From NCBI GenBank assembly GCA_021159015.1, contig JAGGSQ010000054.1:1-32386 (forward strand): 32,386 nt of DNA, written 5' to 3'. Made by a program: the position numbers and the translations under genes. Below are positions 21,449 through 30,112 of the stretch, piece after piece; the stretch's first letter is position 1, and each line of letters begins with the position of its first letter. A model generated the notes under the pieces. That model made no database searches. It saw nothing but the letters and a program-made list of their open reading frames with translations, and was not told where the DNA came from. The DNA is from Candidatus Omnitrophota bacterium. GTDB taxonomy: Bacteria > Omnitrophota > Gorgyraeia > Duberdicusellales > Duberdicusellaceae.

Positions 21449-22339
21449 ATGTCGCACAAATTGGGATATATATTTTTTGAGTGTTTAGGGGAGGATCTGG
21501 CACTAGATTTTTCTTATGATTTTGAGAATAATGTGAGGTTTATGCGCAAAATTCCATCAATTAACGAAGCACCATGGCACGAGTGGCTAGGTCTTCAATG
21601 GCAAGATGTTGTAACATCTAATGCAGTCATTGAGGTTAAATCTGAGACTCAAAACCCTAAAATTCTTGATAACGAAAATAAAGAATTAGAATTTAAATGT
21701 CGAAAGTTATGGCTTTCGCTTATGCTCACAGGTCCATTTTATTTGGATAATGCCTATTTTTTAACAGGTAGTGAAATAAATAATAAAATTGAGATTCGGC
21801 GATTTTTTAAGTTTGATAGATGGTTTCATCCTGGTGATAATTTTGTCGAGACAATAACTGATATTGAAGTAAATAAATGGAAAAATATTTTTTTACAGAT
21901 AGAAGAAATTTATAAGCGTAAGGAAGATTTTACAAGATTTAAAAGAGGCTTGCTTTGTTTTTTAAAAGGATGCAATGAATCGCAAGTGTTTTTTCGTCTC
22001 CCGTATTTTGTGCGTTCACTGGAAGCCTTAAGTATTCCTGATAAAGGCAAAACCGCAAGACAATTTAAATCGAGAGTTAGCCAATGGTGGCCAGCTAATA
22101 GCCAAAAAGGTCACTTTTCTGAGGATGCTATGATAACTTTATCAGAGATATATGATTTACGATGTGATTTTGAGCACATGCACCCTCCTAAAATTGATGA
22201 CGTTAATAAACAGCTTTTGCGTTCCTATCAGTGTGAAAAAGTGGCGAGAAATGCATATTATGATATTTTGATGAATAGCAATAAACTTAAGATGTTTATA
22301 AACGACGACACCATAAAAAGATTTTGGGTGAATCAATGA
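21449..22339 (+). CDS. HEPN-domain-like protein
   Basis: 296 aa. The last ~110 residues resemble Apea-type HEPN domains: RSLEALSIPDKGKTARQFKSR (about 189-209), then YDLRCDFEHMH, which supplies the R-x4-H catalytic motif (R238, H243) of HEPN ribonucleases. The first ~180 residues are unassigned and rich in aromatic and acidic residues. HEPN proteins of this size are often RNase toxins in abortive-infection systems. No antitoxin is obvious beyond the HTH gene upstream. Stop and next start overlap as ATGA. Confidence 0.65.
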   Translation: MSHKLGYIFFECLGEDLALDFSYDFENNVRFMRKIPSINEAPWHEWLGLQWQDVVTSNAVIEVKSETQNPKILDNENKELEFKCRKLWLSLMLTGPFYLDNAYFLTGSEINNKIEIRRFFKFDRWFHPGDNFVETITDIEVNKWKNIFLQIEEIYKRKEDFTRFKRGLLCFLKGCNESQVFFRLPYFVRSLEALSIPDKGKTARQFKSRVSQWWPANSQKGHFSEDAMITLSEIYDLRCDFEHMHPPKIDDVNKQLLRSYQCEKVARNAYYDILMNSNKLKMFINDDTIKRFWVNQ

Positions 22340-22461
22340 AAGTAGCAATTTATCTTAGAGTAAGTACCGAAGACCAAGCCAAAGAAGGATATTCTCTTGA
22401 AGTACAAAGAGAATATCTTGAATCCTTTGCCAAATATAATAATTTCGGATTTCGAATTTAG
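22336..22461 (+). pseudogene. Truncated serine recombinase (N-terminal 41 aa)
   Basis: The frame begins MKVAIYLRVSTEDQAKEGYS, the start of the resolvase/invertase catalytic domain including the nucleophilic Ser10 and the following arginine-rich strand. It stops after 41 codons (TAG 22459-22461), whereas full enzymes have 180-550 residues. No further recombinase sequence follows before the DUF3800 gene, so the rest was deleted or replaced. Its ATG overlaps the HEPN stop by 4 nt, suggesting it was once in the same operon. Confidence 0.85.
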
Positions 22462-22485: not shown

Positions 22486-23136
22486 ATGGTATATCTTTAT
22501 TTGGATGAGAGTGGAGATTTAGGGTTTGATTTTGTCAATAAGAAGCCGTCAAGATTTTTTACGGTTTGTATTGTTGTAATTAAGGGCAGGAAAAGCCGGG
22601 ATAGGATAGCGAGAATGGTTAAAAGGACTTTGCGTAAAAAACTGAACCCTAAGAATAGACGTAAAAGAATGGTGCAGGAACTGAAAGCTACATCAACAAC
22701 ATTGAAAGTAAAGGAGTATTTTTATCACAAGGTAAAGAATGAGAAATTTTCCATTTATGCGCTTACTCTAAATAAAAAGAGAGTTTATAACCGCTTAGTT
22801 AAGGATAAATCCAGAGTGTATAATTGGATTGCAAGATTATTAACAGATGAGATTGATTTTTCTTTGGCAAATATGCGGATTGAGTTTGTTGTTGACAAAT
22901 CTAAAAGCAAGCCGGAGATAATAGAATTCAACAAATATGTTAAGGCTTTTGTCGAAGGAAGAGTCGACCCGCAAATTCCATTTGTCATCAGACATGAGGA
23001 TTCTAAAAAAGATCTTTGTTTAAATATGGCGGATTTATTTGCATGGGGGATATTTAGAAAGTATGAACGGCGGGATCATAGGTGGTATAATGTTTTTAAA
23101 GACAAGGTAAAATTTGATGATGTGTATCTTAAATAA
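22486..23136 (+). CDS. DUF3800 protein (RNase H-fold-like)
   Basis: 216 aa, behind GCAGGAAAG. The hallmark N-terminus YLDESGDLGF provides acidic residues D7, E8 and D11. Further conserved acids occur in VVDKSKSK (about 140) and in the C-terminal NMADLFAWGIFRKYE motif. The pattern suggests an RNase H/resolvase-like nuclease fold, but biochemical function is not established. The gene is immediately followed by a foldable non-coding stretch; several published RNA motif classes are named after DUF3800 because they neighbour such genes. Confidence 0.9.
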   Translation: MVYLYLDESGDLGFDFVNKKPSRFFTVCIVVIKGRKSRDRIARMVKRTLRKKLNPKNRRKRMVQELKATSTTLKVKEYFYHKVKNEKFSIYALTLNKKRVYNRLVKDKSRVYNWIARLLTDEIDFSLANMRIEFVVDKSKSKPEIIEFNKYVKAFVEGRVDPQIPFVIRHEDSKKDLCLNMADLFAWGIFRKYERRDHRWYNVFKDKVKFDDVYLK

Positions 23137-23141
23137 AAAAC

Positions 23142-23231
23142 GAGTGAGCCTTTCACGCGTATTTTCTTTGAGGCTTTTGCCAACCAGATGGATGGGAACA
23201 CCTCAAAACGCCTGAGAAGGACTTACCACTC
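23142..23231 (+). ncRNA. Candidate structured RNA next to DUF3800
   Basis: Begins 5 nt after the DUF3800 stop. A coherent fold can be drawn: GAGTG (23142-23146) with CACTC (23227-23231); AGCCTT (23147-23152) with AAGG-a-CT (23217-23223); GCGT (23157-23160) with ACGC (23208-23211), stacked on TTTGAGG (23167-23173) with CCTCAAA (23201-23207). A terminal stem follows, 23180-23182/23193-23195 and 23184-23185/23190-23191, around an A-A mismatch and an AGAT loop. An alternative short hairpin (23144-23147/23153-23156) competes with the basal helix. No terminator-like T-run follows. The fold is drawn by eye without covariation support. Confidence 0.55.
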
Positions 23232-23294
23232 TTTCTAGAGTATAATATAAAGGAAATAAGTTGTCAAGAGAGAGATAAATACTCAGTAGGTATC

Positions 23295-23512: not shown

Positions 23513-23568
23513 TTCGTTACAATAACGAAAGACTTGACAAAAAGACTATAATTCGTTACAATAACGAA
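23513..23568 (+). promoter_or_regulatory. Promoter flanked by twin palindromic operators
   Basis: The 17-nt palindrome TTCGTTA-CAA-TAACGAA occurs identically at 23513-23529 and 23552-23568 (39 bp between centres). Between and within them lie TTGACA (23534-23539) and, 17 nt on, TACAAT (23557-23562), so the second operator covers the -10. GAAGGAG and ATG 23583 follow directly. This is a typical repressor-controlled promoter of a toxin-antitoxin-like operon. Confidence 0.8.
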
Positions 23569-23582
23569 GGAGAAAAGCAAAA

Positions 23583-23951
23583 ATGGGTGATTTCAATAAA
23601 CATCTGAAGCTGGCAAAAGAAAAATTAAAAGCCACCCTTACTGCTTACCAGAATAAACAGACGACAGTAGTGGGTGATTTAGGCATAAAGGTGGTTGAAC
23701 AGTTGGTAGAGGCTGATGCTGCAGAACATGAGGAGCATTTTGGCGACCATAAGTCAAGGCATGAATATTCCAACAGGAATTTTCCTTCTGAGGTAAATAA
23801 AGCAATGCGAAAAGTGTGATTTGCATATGGTGATTTGGGTTATGACGGGATTAATGGCAGGAGGGCGAAGATTGTAATGGATAATCTCAAAATAATAATC
23901 AGATTTTTTGAAAAAAGATTTGGGGTAAAAATTTATGAAGAGGATACTTAA
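23583..23951 (+). pseudogene. HEPN-like small protein interrupted by in-frame TGA
   Basis: The first segment is 78 aa (to TGA 23817-23819). The same frame continues with FAYGDLGYDGINGRRAKIVM and FFEKRFGVKIYEEDT to TAA 23951, giving a 122-codon gene with one internal stop. The combined sequence is helical, with a basic SRHEYSNRNFP centre and a C-terminal GRRA helix, resembling small archaeal-type HEPN partners of nucleotidyltransferases. It overlaps the nucleotidyltransferase start by 17 nt. A nonsense mutation is the simplest reading. A truncated 78-aa product could still be made because promoter and ribosome binding site are intact. Confidence 0.55.
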
Positions 23952-24513
23952 GAAGATAGCAAAGAAGCTTTCTGAGATAGAAGATGTAAAGGCTGTTATC
24001 CTTTACGGCAGCCTTGCCAGAGACGAATATACATCGCGTTCTGATATTGACTTGTTCATACTTACTACCAGGAGCGAGACGCAGGATTTGATATATAACA
24101 AGATAATAGAGATTGAGAATGAGACAGGAATAAATATACAGCCTACTATAAGAACTCTGAATGAATTACATAAAACGGATACAGGGCTTCTGCAGAACAT
24201 TTTTCAGGAAGGAAAAATTCTGTATCTTAGAGAACCATCCGATATACCCTCCGCAATACTGCTTCAGCAGAAACCTTACCTCATTTATTCTTTTCAGATA
24301 AGCAGCCTGCCGCAGAAAGACAAGGCAAGGTTCAACAGACAACTTTATGAACAGAAAAGGAAGGAGTATAAATACAAAGGTCTGCTGCAGGAGATAGGCG
24401 GCAGAAAACTTTCATCAGGTTGTGTAATGATTCCCTATGCACATAAAGAAAGAATAGAGAAGTTTTTCAGGAAATTCAGGGTTAAATTTCAGCAGTTAAA
24501 GGTGTGGAGATAG
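23935..24513 (+). CDS. Pol beta-type nucleotidyltransferase (MNT-like)
   Basis: 192 aa. The minimal-nucleotidyltransferase signature GSLARDEYTSRSDIDLFIL (25-43) gives the GS motif and metal-binding D38 and D40. The third acidic strand is less clear (about NIQPTIRTLNEL). A basic C-terminal region of ~85 residues, not seen in ~100-aa MNT antitoxins, may bind nucleic acid or a partner. HEPN-MNT pairs usually work as RNase toxin and AMP-adding antitoxin; here the upstream HEPN-like partner is interrupted, leaving the NTase possibly orphaned. Weak ribosome binding site (GGGG 8-11 nt upstream), coupled by overlap. Confidence 0.85.
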   Translation: MKRILKKIAKKLSEIEDVKAVILYGSLARDEYTSRSDIDLFILTTRSETQDLIYNKIIEIENETGINIQPTIRTLNELHKTDTGLLQNIFQEGKILYLREPSDIPSAILLQQKPYLIYSFQISSLPQKDKARFNRQLYEQKRKEYKYKGLLQEIGGRKLSSGCVMIPYAHKERIEKFFRKFRVKFQQLKVWR

Positions 24514-26872: not shown

Positions 26873-27553
26873 GTGAATACGATGACAAAACAGCTTATAA
26901 AATCTAAATCCCGGATTCGTAATCACGGAGAAGTGTTTACTCCGGATTTTATAGTTGAGGATATGCTTGATTTGGTTAAATCTGAAACGGAGCGGATAGA
27001 CTCGCGTTTTTTAGAGCCTGCTTGCGGGGAGGGAAATTTTCTTATAAAGATTTTGGAGAGGAAATTAGACGTTGTGGATAAAAGATATAAAAAAAATCAA
27101 TTTGATTATGAAAGAAACTCTTTAATTGCTATTTCCAGCATATATGGAATAGAATTGCTTGATGATAATGTGCTGAAAGCAAGAGGAAGACTGTACGATT
27201 ACTTTCTTAAAAGATATACAGAGCTATATAAAGATAAAATAAACAATTTGTTTCTGGAAAATATCAAATTTATTTTGGAGAAAAATATTATCCAAGGAGA
27301 TGCTTTGACATTTAAGGATAAGGATGGGAAAGCAATAATATTTTCTGAGTGGTCTGCGGTTAACGGAACGCTTATAAAAAGAAGAGATTTTCAATTTAGG
27401 AACTTAGCGAATTTTGACTCTAAACAGCTTACTTTTAATACAATAATTGAAAAGTCTGATGATGGGAGAACGGTTTGGCTTCCTAAGCCTATTAGAGAAT
27501 ATCCCGCAGTTAATTTTCTAAAATTAAAAGAACAGGAAGAAAGTGTTAAATAG
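26873..27553 (+). CDS. N6-DNA methyltransferase-like protein without NPPY
   Basis: 226 aa from GTG 26873 (223 from ATG 26882). [17 protein letters not shown] and the SAM-binding motif [12 protein letters not shown] (47-57) are standard for adenine-N6 methylases, and IIQGDAL marks a later strand of the Rossmann fold. The catalytic NPPY/F motif is missing, and the C-terminus ([16 protein letters not shown]) is unlike a target-recognition domain. It overlaps the next gene, a methylase that has NPPY but a changed motif I, so the two may form a split or heteromeric enzyme. Alternatively it is a degenerate subunit. Confidence 0.75.
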
Positions 27554-29090
27554 AAACTTAAGTTATAATCCCGATGTTCTTGACGCTTTGGCTAATTTAA
27601 GCAGTGACGAGGTTTTTACACCGCCAAAAATTGCCAATCAAGTTTTAGATTTGTTGCCTCAAGAGTTATTTAAAAATCCAAATACCACTTTTTTAGACCC
27701 TGCAAGTAAATCAGGAGTTTTTTTAAGAGAAATTGCTAAAAGGTTGATTGAAGGCTTAGAAGAGAAAATTCCGGATTTACAAAAGAGGTTAAATCACATT
27801 TTTACAAAACAATTATTCGGCATTGCTATTACTGAACTGACCGCTTTGCTTTCAAGAAGGACAGTTTATTGTTCAAAAAAAGCAAATGGAAAATATTCTG
27901 TGTGCACAGCATTTAATAATGAAAAAGGCAATATATATTTTGATAGGATTGAACATACTTGGGAGAATGGAAAGTGTAAATTTTGCGGGGCAAGCCAAGA
28001 GGTTTATGAAAGGGATGATATTTTAGAAACTCATGCTTATATATTTATTCATAAAAAACCGCAAGAGATATTAAATATATTTGGAGGTGAAAAAATGAGA
28101 TTTGATGTAATTATAGGAAATCCGCCTTATCAGTTGAACGATGGGGGAGCGCAAGCAAGCGCAACTCCTATATACCATGAGTTTGTAGAGCAGGCCATAA
28201 AATTGAGTCCAAGATTTCTGACTATGATTATTCCTTCGAGGTGGTTTTCAGGGGGAAAAGGATTAGATAAGTTTAGAGAGGAAATGCTGAATGATAAAAG
28301 GATTAGGGTTCTGGTTGATTATCCATCGTCTCAGGATGTTTTCCCTGGTGTTCAAATAGAAGGTGGCGTGTGTTATTTTCTTTGGGAGAGGGATAGTAAA
28401 GGAAAATGTTTAGTAAAAACTATTAGAGGGGGCAAAGAGGATATTCTGGAGAGACATTTATTAGAGAAAGGATATGATACGTTTATTCGTTTTAATCCAG
28501 CAGTGTCAATTGTCAGAAAGGTAAGTAAATTTAAAGAGGAGAGTTTCAGTAAAATAGTAAGTTCGAGAAAACCTTTTGGTTTCGCAACGAATTTTACTGA
28601 TTTTAAGGATAAAGAATTCAAAAATTCTATAAAGATTTATGCTAATAAAAGAATTGGTTTTCTGGATGAAAAATTAATTAAACAAAATCAAAGTTGGGTA
28701 AATAAATATAAAGTTTTTATAACAAAAGCTTATGGAATGGGTAACAATACTCCATATCAGGTTATAAATAAACCATTTTTAGGTGAGAAAAATACTTGTT
28801 GCACAGAAACTTATTTGGTTATTGGTCCTTTCAATTCAAAAAAAGAAGCCGAAAATGTCATTTCTTATATCAAGACAAATTTTTTTAGGTTTTTAGTTAT
28901 GTTAAATAAGCCAACTCAAGATGCCACTAGTAAAGTCTATAAATTCGTTCCTTTCCAAGATTTCACCTCAGGATCAGACATAGATTGGAGCAAACCTATT
29001 TCTGAAATAGATAAACAGCTTTACAAAAAATACGGTTTAACGAAAGAGGAAATTGATTTTATTGAATCAATGATTAAACCAATGGAATAA
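27543..29090 (+). CDS. Eco57I-type DNA methylase/restriction protein
   Basis: 515 aa, GTG start overlapping the previous gene by 11 nt behind AGGAAG. Motif X-like [19 protein letters not shown] (20-38), motif I in the altered form [11 protein letters not shown] (51-61) and catalytic motif [13 protein letters not shown] (190-200) are visible. Between them C110, C121, C145 and C148 (CKFC) could bind zinc. The C-terminal ~300 residues probably recognise DNA. From family memory, proteins with D-P-x-x-K-S-G and this spacing form a common Eco57I-like group. The sequence preference cannot be read. Confidence 0.85.
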
Positions 29091-29092
29091 AA

Positions 29093-30112
29093 ATGAAAGG
29101 AATAGAACTAAAAGATTATAAAGCTCTTAAACAGCAAATAAAAAATTTGTTGATAGAAGGCCGGCAAAAAGCCTATCAATCTATTAACACGATTTTATTG
29201 CAAACTTATTGGAATATAGGGAAATATATTGTTGAATATGAGCAAAAAGGCAATGTAAAAGCCAAATATGGCGAGCAGTTATTAAAAAAGCTGTCAAAAG
29301 ATTTAACTTTTGAGTTTGGAAAAGGATTTAGCAGGTCCAATCTTACTTATATGAGAAAGTTTTATCTTATGTTTCCGAAAAGTGAGACGGTGTCTCACAA
29401 ATTGAGCTGGAGTCATTATTTTGAAATACTTAAAACAGATGACAGATTAGAGGCTTCTTTTTATGTTAAGCAATGTGAAAAAGAGAATTGGAGCGTCAGA
29501 GAGTTAAAAAGGCAGATTAAAAGTATGCTTTTTCACCGCCTTGCTTTAAGCAAGGATAAGAAAGGAGTAATTAAGCTGGCAAAGGCCGGCCAGGATATAT
29601 CAAGGCCGAATGATATTGTGAAAGACCCTTATGTGTTTGAGTTTTTGGATATTCCCCGGCAGAATTTATATTTAGAGGGAGAGATTGAGAAAAGATTGAT
29701 TGACAACCTTGAAAAATTTTTATTGGAGTTGGGAAAAGGGTTTGCGTTTGTGGGTAGGCAGTACAAGATTTCAATAGGAAACAGGCATTTTTATGTGGAT
29801 TTGGTTTTTTATCACCGAATTCTAAAATGTTTTGTTCTTATTGATTTAAAAAGAGGAGAAATTGAGCATAACGATATCGGGCAAATGAATTTATATCTTA
29901 ATTACTTTGCTGAAGAAGAAAATGAAAAGGATGATAATCCGCCAATCGGCATTGTTTTAGGAGCATATAAGGATAAGATCCTTGTTGAGTATTCGGTTAA
30001 AAATATATCCAATAAGCTGTTTGTAAGCAAATATCAGCTCTATTTGCCTAATAAAGAGGAACTTCAGAAAGAATTAATTAAGATTATTGAGGACGGCGAA
30101 AATGGGTGGTAA
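29093..30112 (+). CDS. DUF1016/YhcG-type PD-(D/E)xK nuclease
   Basis: 339 aa. The N-terminal DUF1016_N region (about 12-105) is a helical, probably DNA-binding domain (GRQKAYQSINTILLQTYWNI, YMRKFYLMFP). The C-terminal nuclease domain has KDPYVFEFLD, then VDLVFYH (D236), then LIDLKRG (D251, K253) for the PD-(D/E)xK core, followed by GQMNLYLNYF. Related YhcG proteins are frequent beside restriction systems; their exact role is unclear. It begins 2 nt after the methylase stop, and its end overlaps the helicase gene by 11 nt. A 7-bp inverted repeat lies at 29382-29398 inside the gene. Confidence 0.92.
   Translation: MKGIELKDYKALKQQIKNLLIEGRQKAYQSINTILLQTYWNIGKYIVEYEQKGNVKAKYGEQLLKKLSKDLTFEFGKGFSRSNLTYMRKFYLMFPKSETVSHKLSWSHYFEILKTDDRLEASFYVKQCEKENWSVRELKRQIKSMLFHRLALSKDKKGVIKLAKAGQDISRPNDIVKDPYVFEFLDIPRQNLYLEGEIEKRLIDNLEKFLLELGKGFAFVGRQYKISIGNRHFYVDLVFYHRILKCFVLIDLKRGEIEHNDIGQMNLYLNYFAEEENEKDDNPPIGIVLGAYKDKILVEYSVKNISNKLFVSKYQLYLPNKEELQKELIKIIEDGENGW

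Follow-up and report, generated by a model that had tools for sequence, protein, structure and literature searches.

A convergent DUF3800-V RNA beside a DUF3800 gene of predicted RNase H fold in an Omnitrophota genome, and a candidate two-part module

The DUF3800 RNAs are named for their location near DUF3800 genes and, to our knowledge, no function has been assigned to them. The original description of the DUF3800-V RNA is reportedly that of Weinberg in 2017. Type VII retrons offer a related arrangement, as there too a DUF3800 protein is partnered with a structured RNA. On the protein side, an RNase H fold has been reported earlier for DUF3800 (PMC10910872), the accessory nucleases of some CRISPR loci include DUF3800 (PMC12669027), and DUF3800 proteins adjoin some type V-A2 and VI-F CRISPR effectors (PMC10910872, PMC12669027).

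The stretch of 32,386 nucleotides analysed here (hereafter the window) comes from a Candidatus Omnitrophota genome and holds one such gene and RNA. Measured against RF02964, the window RNA has the same structure, a full-length covariance match and an adjoining DUF3800 gene; it shows no substantive difference and is an ordinary member of the known DUF3800-V family. The convergent promoter, the fixed junction at the stop codon and the nesting of DUF3800-V loci were measured in the present analysis, and it is the overall design of DUF3800–RNA modules, rather than the window entry itself, that is of interest.

The DUF3800 gene of the window (22486..23136, plus strand) is intact and encodes 216 amino acids. 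An earlier note on this DNA had recognized it from the sequence, and the Pfam search agrees (PF12686, E 4.6e-12, 47.3 bits against a cut-off of 21). An AlphaFold2 model (pLDDT 85.6) finds its best Foldseek matches in the PDB among RNase HII and HIII (E 1.8e-4 to 5.6e-4, TM ~0.5). Among 63 aligned DUF3800 proteins D7 and E8 are kept in 62 and D183 in all, and position 137, an aspartate in the window protein, is D or E in 58. The order D-E-D-D resembles the type 2 RNase H set. The RNase H-like acidic motifs that the note had proposed are borne out, on this model, as D7-E8-D137-D183 in a predicted RNase H-type fold. In overall fold (Foldseek E 1.8e-4) and in the ordered D-E-D-D the modelled protein is like RNase HII and HIII, a relation that stands at the level of the fold and of residue order rather than of superposed residues; but DUF3800 has DESGD where those enzymes have DEAGRG, and an RNA gene adjoins it. 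Membership of RNase HII by sequence homology is rejected, since hhalign of the DUF3800 profile against 18 RNase HII proteins gave a probability of 0.1%, that is, no sequence relation. A PDB sequence search with the protein returned no match.

PADLOC assigns the window protein to DUF3800_VII (E 4.6e-7), which we take to be the type VII retron effector. Type VII retrons have a DUF3800 protein too, but the window locus has no neighbouring reverse transcriptase: no such family was found in the nine proteins scanned between 20349 and 26779. The adjoining RNA is DUF3800-V, not msr-msd, and the locus is not counted among these retrons.

Just past the DUF3800 stop codon the earlier note had drawn a foldable RNA, with a basal helix, stacked helices and a capped terminal stem. 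These elements exist. The minimum free energy of the ~100-nt stretch is -31.7 kcal/mol on the plus strand and -35.4 on the minus strand; both strands fold ~4 standard deviations below dinucleotide shuffles (z -3.9 for the plus strand), so single-sequence folding is unable to tell them apart. The Rfam search which the note had suggested does so. RF02964 is matched over its full model (1-96) on the minus strand, from 23236 to 23137, at 61.1 bits against a gathering cut-off of 37.4, as one long bulged stem of four helices. The supposed membership in a DUF3800 RNA class is confirmed in this way, with class V as the class. The RNA is present in a single copy in the source genome.

The covariation test, also suggested by the note, likewise upholds the fold. 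In a consensus of 27 pairs over 22 aligned DUF3800-V RNAs, 95.1% of pair cells hold standard pairs and 18 of the 27 pairs show two-sided (compensatory) changes. The covariation score is 0.57; shuffles give 0.24, and slid structures never exceed 0.18. Read on the minus strand, the consensus pairs contain 40 G-U cells against 7 A-C cells (one pair, U-G nearly everywhere, is excluded from this count), and this excess indicates that selection acts on the minus-strand RNA. Several loops are kept as well. A GGUAAG loop motif (23222..23227, minus strand), separating the basal helix from helix 2, is kept among DUF3800-V RNAs and is present in some other DUF3800 RNAs too; in the alignment GUAAG and GUGUUCC loops are kept, and conserved loops of this kind are what a protein-bound RNA would be expected to show.

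A sigma70-type promoter for this RNA is predicted on the minus strand (23239..23267), with TTGACA at 23267-23262, a spacer of 17 nt and TATACT at 23244-23239. It agrees with the consensus at 11 of 12 bases and reads toward the DUF3800 gene, and a promoter-like element lies at the matching place in nearly all 23 DUF3800-V loci and on a gammaproteobacterial plasmid. The RNA would start ~7 nt past this promoter, right at the basal helix. Its terminator-like 3′ end (23131..23148, minus strand), as read from the sequence, comprises the 3′ arm of the basal helix followed by a U-tract which overlaps the DUF3800 stop codon (23134-23136). A simple terminator scan scores no 3′ terminator because the loop is the whole RNA. 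Judged from sequence, the class, the minus-strand orientation and the structure of the RNA are established.

The plus-strand drawing of the note does not survive these results. It would make the RNA the 3′UTR of the DUF3800 gene, and a role as plus-strand 3′UTR or terminator of the DUF3800 mRNA is hardly credible: the plus strand does fold (the z score given above), but the Rfam match and the excess of G-U over A-C cells fall on the minus strand, and the minus-strand promoter is kept at a fixed place.

Wherever the sequence of the cognate gene is present, the DUF3800-V RNA and the cognate stop codon lie ~0-7 nt apart, tail to tail. L012 and L186 are exceptions, with another DUF3800 gene and another RNA between the V RNA and the position of the cognate gene. 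No DUF3800 gene was found beside the V RNA in L011 and L193, nor in L187, where 430 nt separate the RNA from the end of the contig.

Such a layout recalls convergent type I toxin–antitoxin loci, in which the RNA gene is likewise convergent with the protein gene and the 3′ ends meet. The RNA might then act mainly in cis, either by antisense pairing with the 3′ part of the DUF3800 mRNA or by blocking its transcription. This reading, which we regard as unlikely though the strongest of the alternatives, draws on the convergent layout, on an RNA that terminates on the stop codon and on the full complementarity that a read-through DUF3800 mRNA would have to it. However, antisense pairing requires no conserved fold, yet loops and compensatory pairs are kept across distant genomes, and DUF3800 is a 216-aa nuclease-fold protein rather than a small hydrophobic toxin. 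On both counts, a large nuclease-fold protein by prediction and an RNA with conserved covarying structure, the locus is unlike type I systems, and it is not assigned to them. Type III toxin–antitoxin systems, with a tandem-repeat RNA upstream on the same strand, are also set aside, as the window has a single RNA on the opposite strand, downstream. The omega RNA of IS200/IS605-type elements lies on the same strand, overlaps the gene and carries a terminal guide; here the RNA is on the opposite strand and closed by its basal helix.

The note had further offered the RNA as a possible guide, substrate or antitoxin, of which the last two would be candidate roles. A nuclease-fold protein with an RNA partner, and the proximity of DUF3800 to some type V-A2 and VI-F CRISPR effectors cited above, would fit an RNA that directs DUF3800 to nucleic-acid targets. 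We nevertheless consider this very improbable, because the RNA runs from its promoter to a terminal U-tract, with the basal helix closing it, and leaves no free variable segment. Most 5′-side loops are conserved, and variable unpaired letters occur only in short 3′-side internal loops.

On balance we favour, by a modest measure, a two-part module: a DUF3800 nuclease of RNase H fold (RNase HII-like) together with its own ~100-nt structured RNA, which would control or arm it. A sigma70 promoter of its own would drive transcription of the RNA, convergently with that of the gene, as far as the basal helix and the U-tract lying on the DUF3800 stop codon. The RNA would then bind the cognate DUF3800 protein in trans, and the bound RNA would hold or direct the nuclease activity. 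Most likely it would be a restraining (antitoxin-like) or an obligatory partner, in a defence or addiction module. The module reading is supported by the RF02964 match, by the compensatory changes and the G-U excess, by the convergent promoters, by the class match described below and by the fold model. Counting against it are the 25 of 55 non-V genes for which the scan below found no strong promoter, the ~10 V loci whose RNA adjoins no intact gene and, for the enzyme, the missing profile relation to RNase HII and the TM of ~0.5. As far as sequence can tell, the promoter-like site, the fixed tail-to-tail layout and the match of RNA class to protein subfamily are established; the last of these is also explicable by linkage alone.

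Covariance searches place DUF3800-V in 11 of 384 genomes of the window's phylum and in 6 of 246 genomes from the phylum to which the contig L044, labelled Planctomycetes, belongs. Further loci are labelled Elusimicrobia and Atribacterota, and one is on the gammaproteobacterial plasmid; L002 and L033, labelled Omnitrophota, are the same contig. Across these loci the gene and the RNA hold as a conserved pair, as the note had supposed. The V gene beside the RNA is truncated, frameshifted, stop-containing or missing in ~10 of 23 loci (a frameshift in L002 and an in-frame stop in L044/L185, read from the sequence), and no intact V-type gene lacking a DUF3800-type RNA was seen. Comparing gene loss with RNA loss was tried as an antitoxin test and dropped: loci with a broken gene and an intact RNA are common, but the comparison has no discriminating power because it was the RNA that led to most of the loci, and the gene offers a larger target. 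The RNA being a short target, the asymmetry is weak evidence. Pattern scans of genome and viral contigs, with matches checked by a looser regular expression and a DUF3800 protein search, gave few genuine members (L014, L033, L044 and L074) and none in viral contigs; the protein search of viral contigs confirmed none, and phage records gave no match. At L002 the DUF3800 unit is bracketed by a direct repeat of ~80 bp, whose copies stand ~890 nt ahead of the 3′ edge of the RNA and 190 nt past it; the repeat adjoins what appears by eye to be a truncated IS21-type IstB gene.

DUF3800 is more widespread than class V, and a Pfam search finds it in 57 of the 384 genomes of the window's phylum. For a promoter test we assembled 55 distinct non-V DUF3800 genes, each with the 200 nt that follow it; almost all came from that search, to which three divergent loci and three plasmid matches were added. 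At a threshold of at least 10 of 12 consensus bases, an opposite-strand promoter-like site lies just past the stop in 30 of the 55, compared with 2 of 105 control ORFs (Fisher p 3.7e-15; 2.6% of shuffles score). The same strand carries such a site past the stop in 5 of 55, and the scan found no strong opposite-strand promoter in the other 25. It seems that most relatives of the gene, too, abut their own small RNA at the 3′ end, and enzyme plus RNA looks like a general module.

Few of these RNAs are catalogued. The DUF3800-IX RNA (RF02968) lies tail to tail with the gene in L254, L258 and L267, a placement like that of DUF3800-V, but its fold and sequence differ and its partner belongs to a different DUF3800 subfamily. 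Among the other non-V loci scanned in the phylum, none had a DUF3800 RNA reaching the Rfam gathering cut-off; L250 showed a DUF3800-I match below threshold. Most RNAs at non-V genes have no Rfam match, which suggests that for many DUF3800 genes the partner RNA is still to be catalogued. When the downstream RNAs were classed by similarity to hand-picked representatives, drawn from those same loci, every gene belonging to a class of two or more members shared its RNA class with its nearest classified protein relative (36 of 36; shuffled labels gave 3.4 on average and at most 13). Since gene and RNA are adjacent, this match shows that they travel jointly and does not prove binding.

Two further RNAs at DUF3800 genes are recorded as side observations. 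A near-identical convergent RNA of ~33 nt (GCGGGCGTTGACTGGGTCGATGGCTCGC), with its own strong promoter and little beyond one hairpin, is found at the DUF3800 stops of L302, L305, L306, L307 and L309. On a Ligilactobacillus salivarius plasmid (L239, 2284-2737), three salivarius-1 RNAs (RF03030) stand in tandem upstream of a DUF3800 gene and point away from it; salivarius-1 is another candidate for an association between an RNA and DUF3800.

Four loci carry at least two RNA classes in a row, and in each the innermost class fits the gene. Counted from the innermost, they are B then V in L012, C then V in L186, B, C and a D-like hairpin (by eye) in L251, and D then E in L310. An older, foreign RNA would thus lie outside the innermost one, as if modules replace one another. 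L004 and L012 represent the same locus from a pair of related genomes, syntenic on either side, where the V gene has been exchanged for a B gene with its B RNA; one junction lies immediately ahead of the start codon, the other where the V RNA has its 3′ end. L191 and L195 share 96% identity as far as a point just outside the -35 box, where the similarity stops abruptly; beyond it they are unrelated. The unit of L310 likewise ends just outside its -35 box, beside the apparent last codons of another DUF3800 gene, a suggestive remnant, only a few codons long, of what may be an older one.

These junctions, together with the scattered single copies in dissimilar contexts, favour a small mobile element in which gene, RNA and promoter move as a unit, perhaps by an RNA-dependent action of DUF3800, and may enter or replace other units. 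We judge it improbable, a shade more so than the antisense reading. Terminal repeats, a target duplication and an empty site were looked for and none was found, and one to two copies per genome fit passive transfer and replacement by recombination. Searches with the joined flanks of L194, whose right flank is a dispersed repeat, and of the window returned no intact empty site, so transposition is not shown. A GGATTTGA-like sequence recurs ahead of several DUF3800 genes and, by eye, might be a target site.

Beyond the favoured module of nuclease and RNA, a wider picture may be entertained, tentatively and with more doubt than belief. DUF3800 would be a large family of RNase H-fold nucleases, each paired with a class-specific small RNA in a convergent module of fixed layout. 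Such modules would invade and replace each other where gene and RNA meet, and the old RNAs left there would form a layered record (L012, L186, L251 and L310).

The neighbours named in the note are confirmed in part. The NYN gene stands, and so does the recombinase relic, the first 41 aa of a serine recombinase (22336..22461, plus strand; PF00239, E 1.6e-5), cut off just upstream of DUF3800; DNA resembling its start occurs elsewhere in the genome and in relatives. The HEPN call, made solely from an RCDFEH-type motif spotted by eye, finds no match in Pfam or PADLOC. A defence-like island, as the note had it, is plausible for the window, given NYN and the Alw26I/Eco31I-like methyltransferases, but is not the rule for the module, because relatives often sit between housekeeping genes (L010 between queA and tgt, L007 before priA, named by eye). 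At 26873-30112, a pair of neighbouring genes with matches to Type II / Alw26I-Eco31I-like methyltransferases is followed by a 339-aa protein (phrog_22762), which presumably resembles DUF1016/YhcG-type nucleases; the whole looks like a restriction-type cluster. A nucleotidyltransferase like the MntA antitoxin family (23935-24513; 41.8 bits, below the family cut-off of 60) has no evident HEPN partner directly adjoining. Two copies of the palindrome TTCGTTACAATAACGAA (23513-23529 and ~23552-23568), operator-like by eye, stand upstream of a 78-aa ORF (23583-23819).

For the family, DUF3800 RNA–gene pairs gain a testable frame: a strand predicted to be transcribed, a putative promoter, a predicted 3′ end, candidate nuclease residues and the tracking of RNA class with protein subfamily. 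The uncatalogued partner RNAs suggest that the pairing of DUF3800 with RNA may reach far beyond the Rfam classes. If the RNA-controlled nuclease proves true, it would be a new two-part system among bacterial defence or addiction modules.
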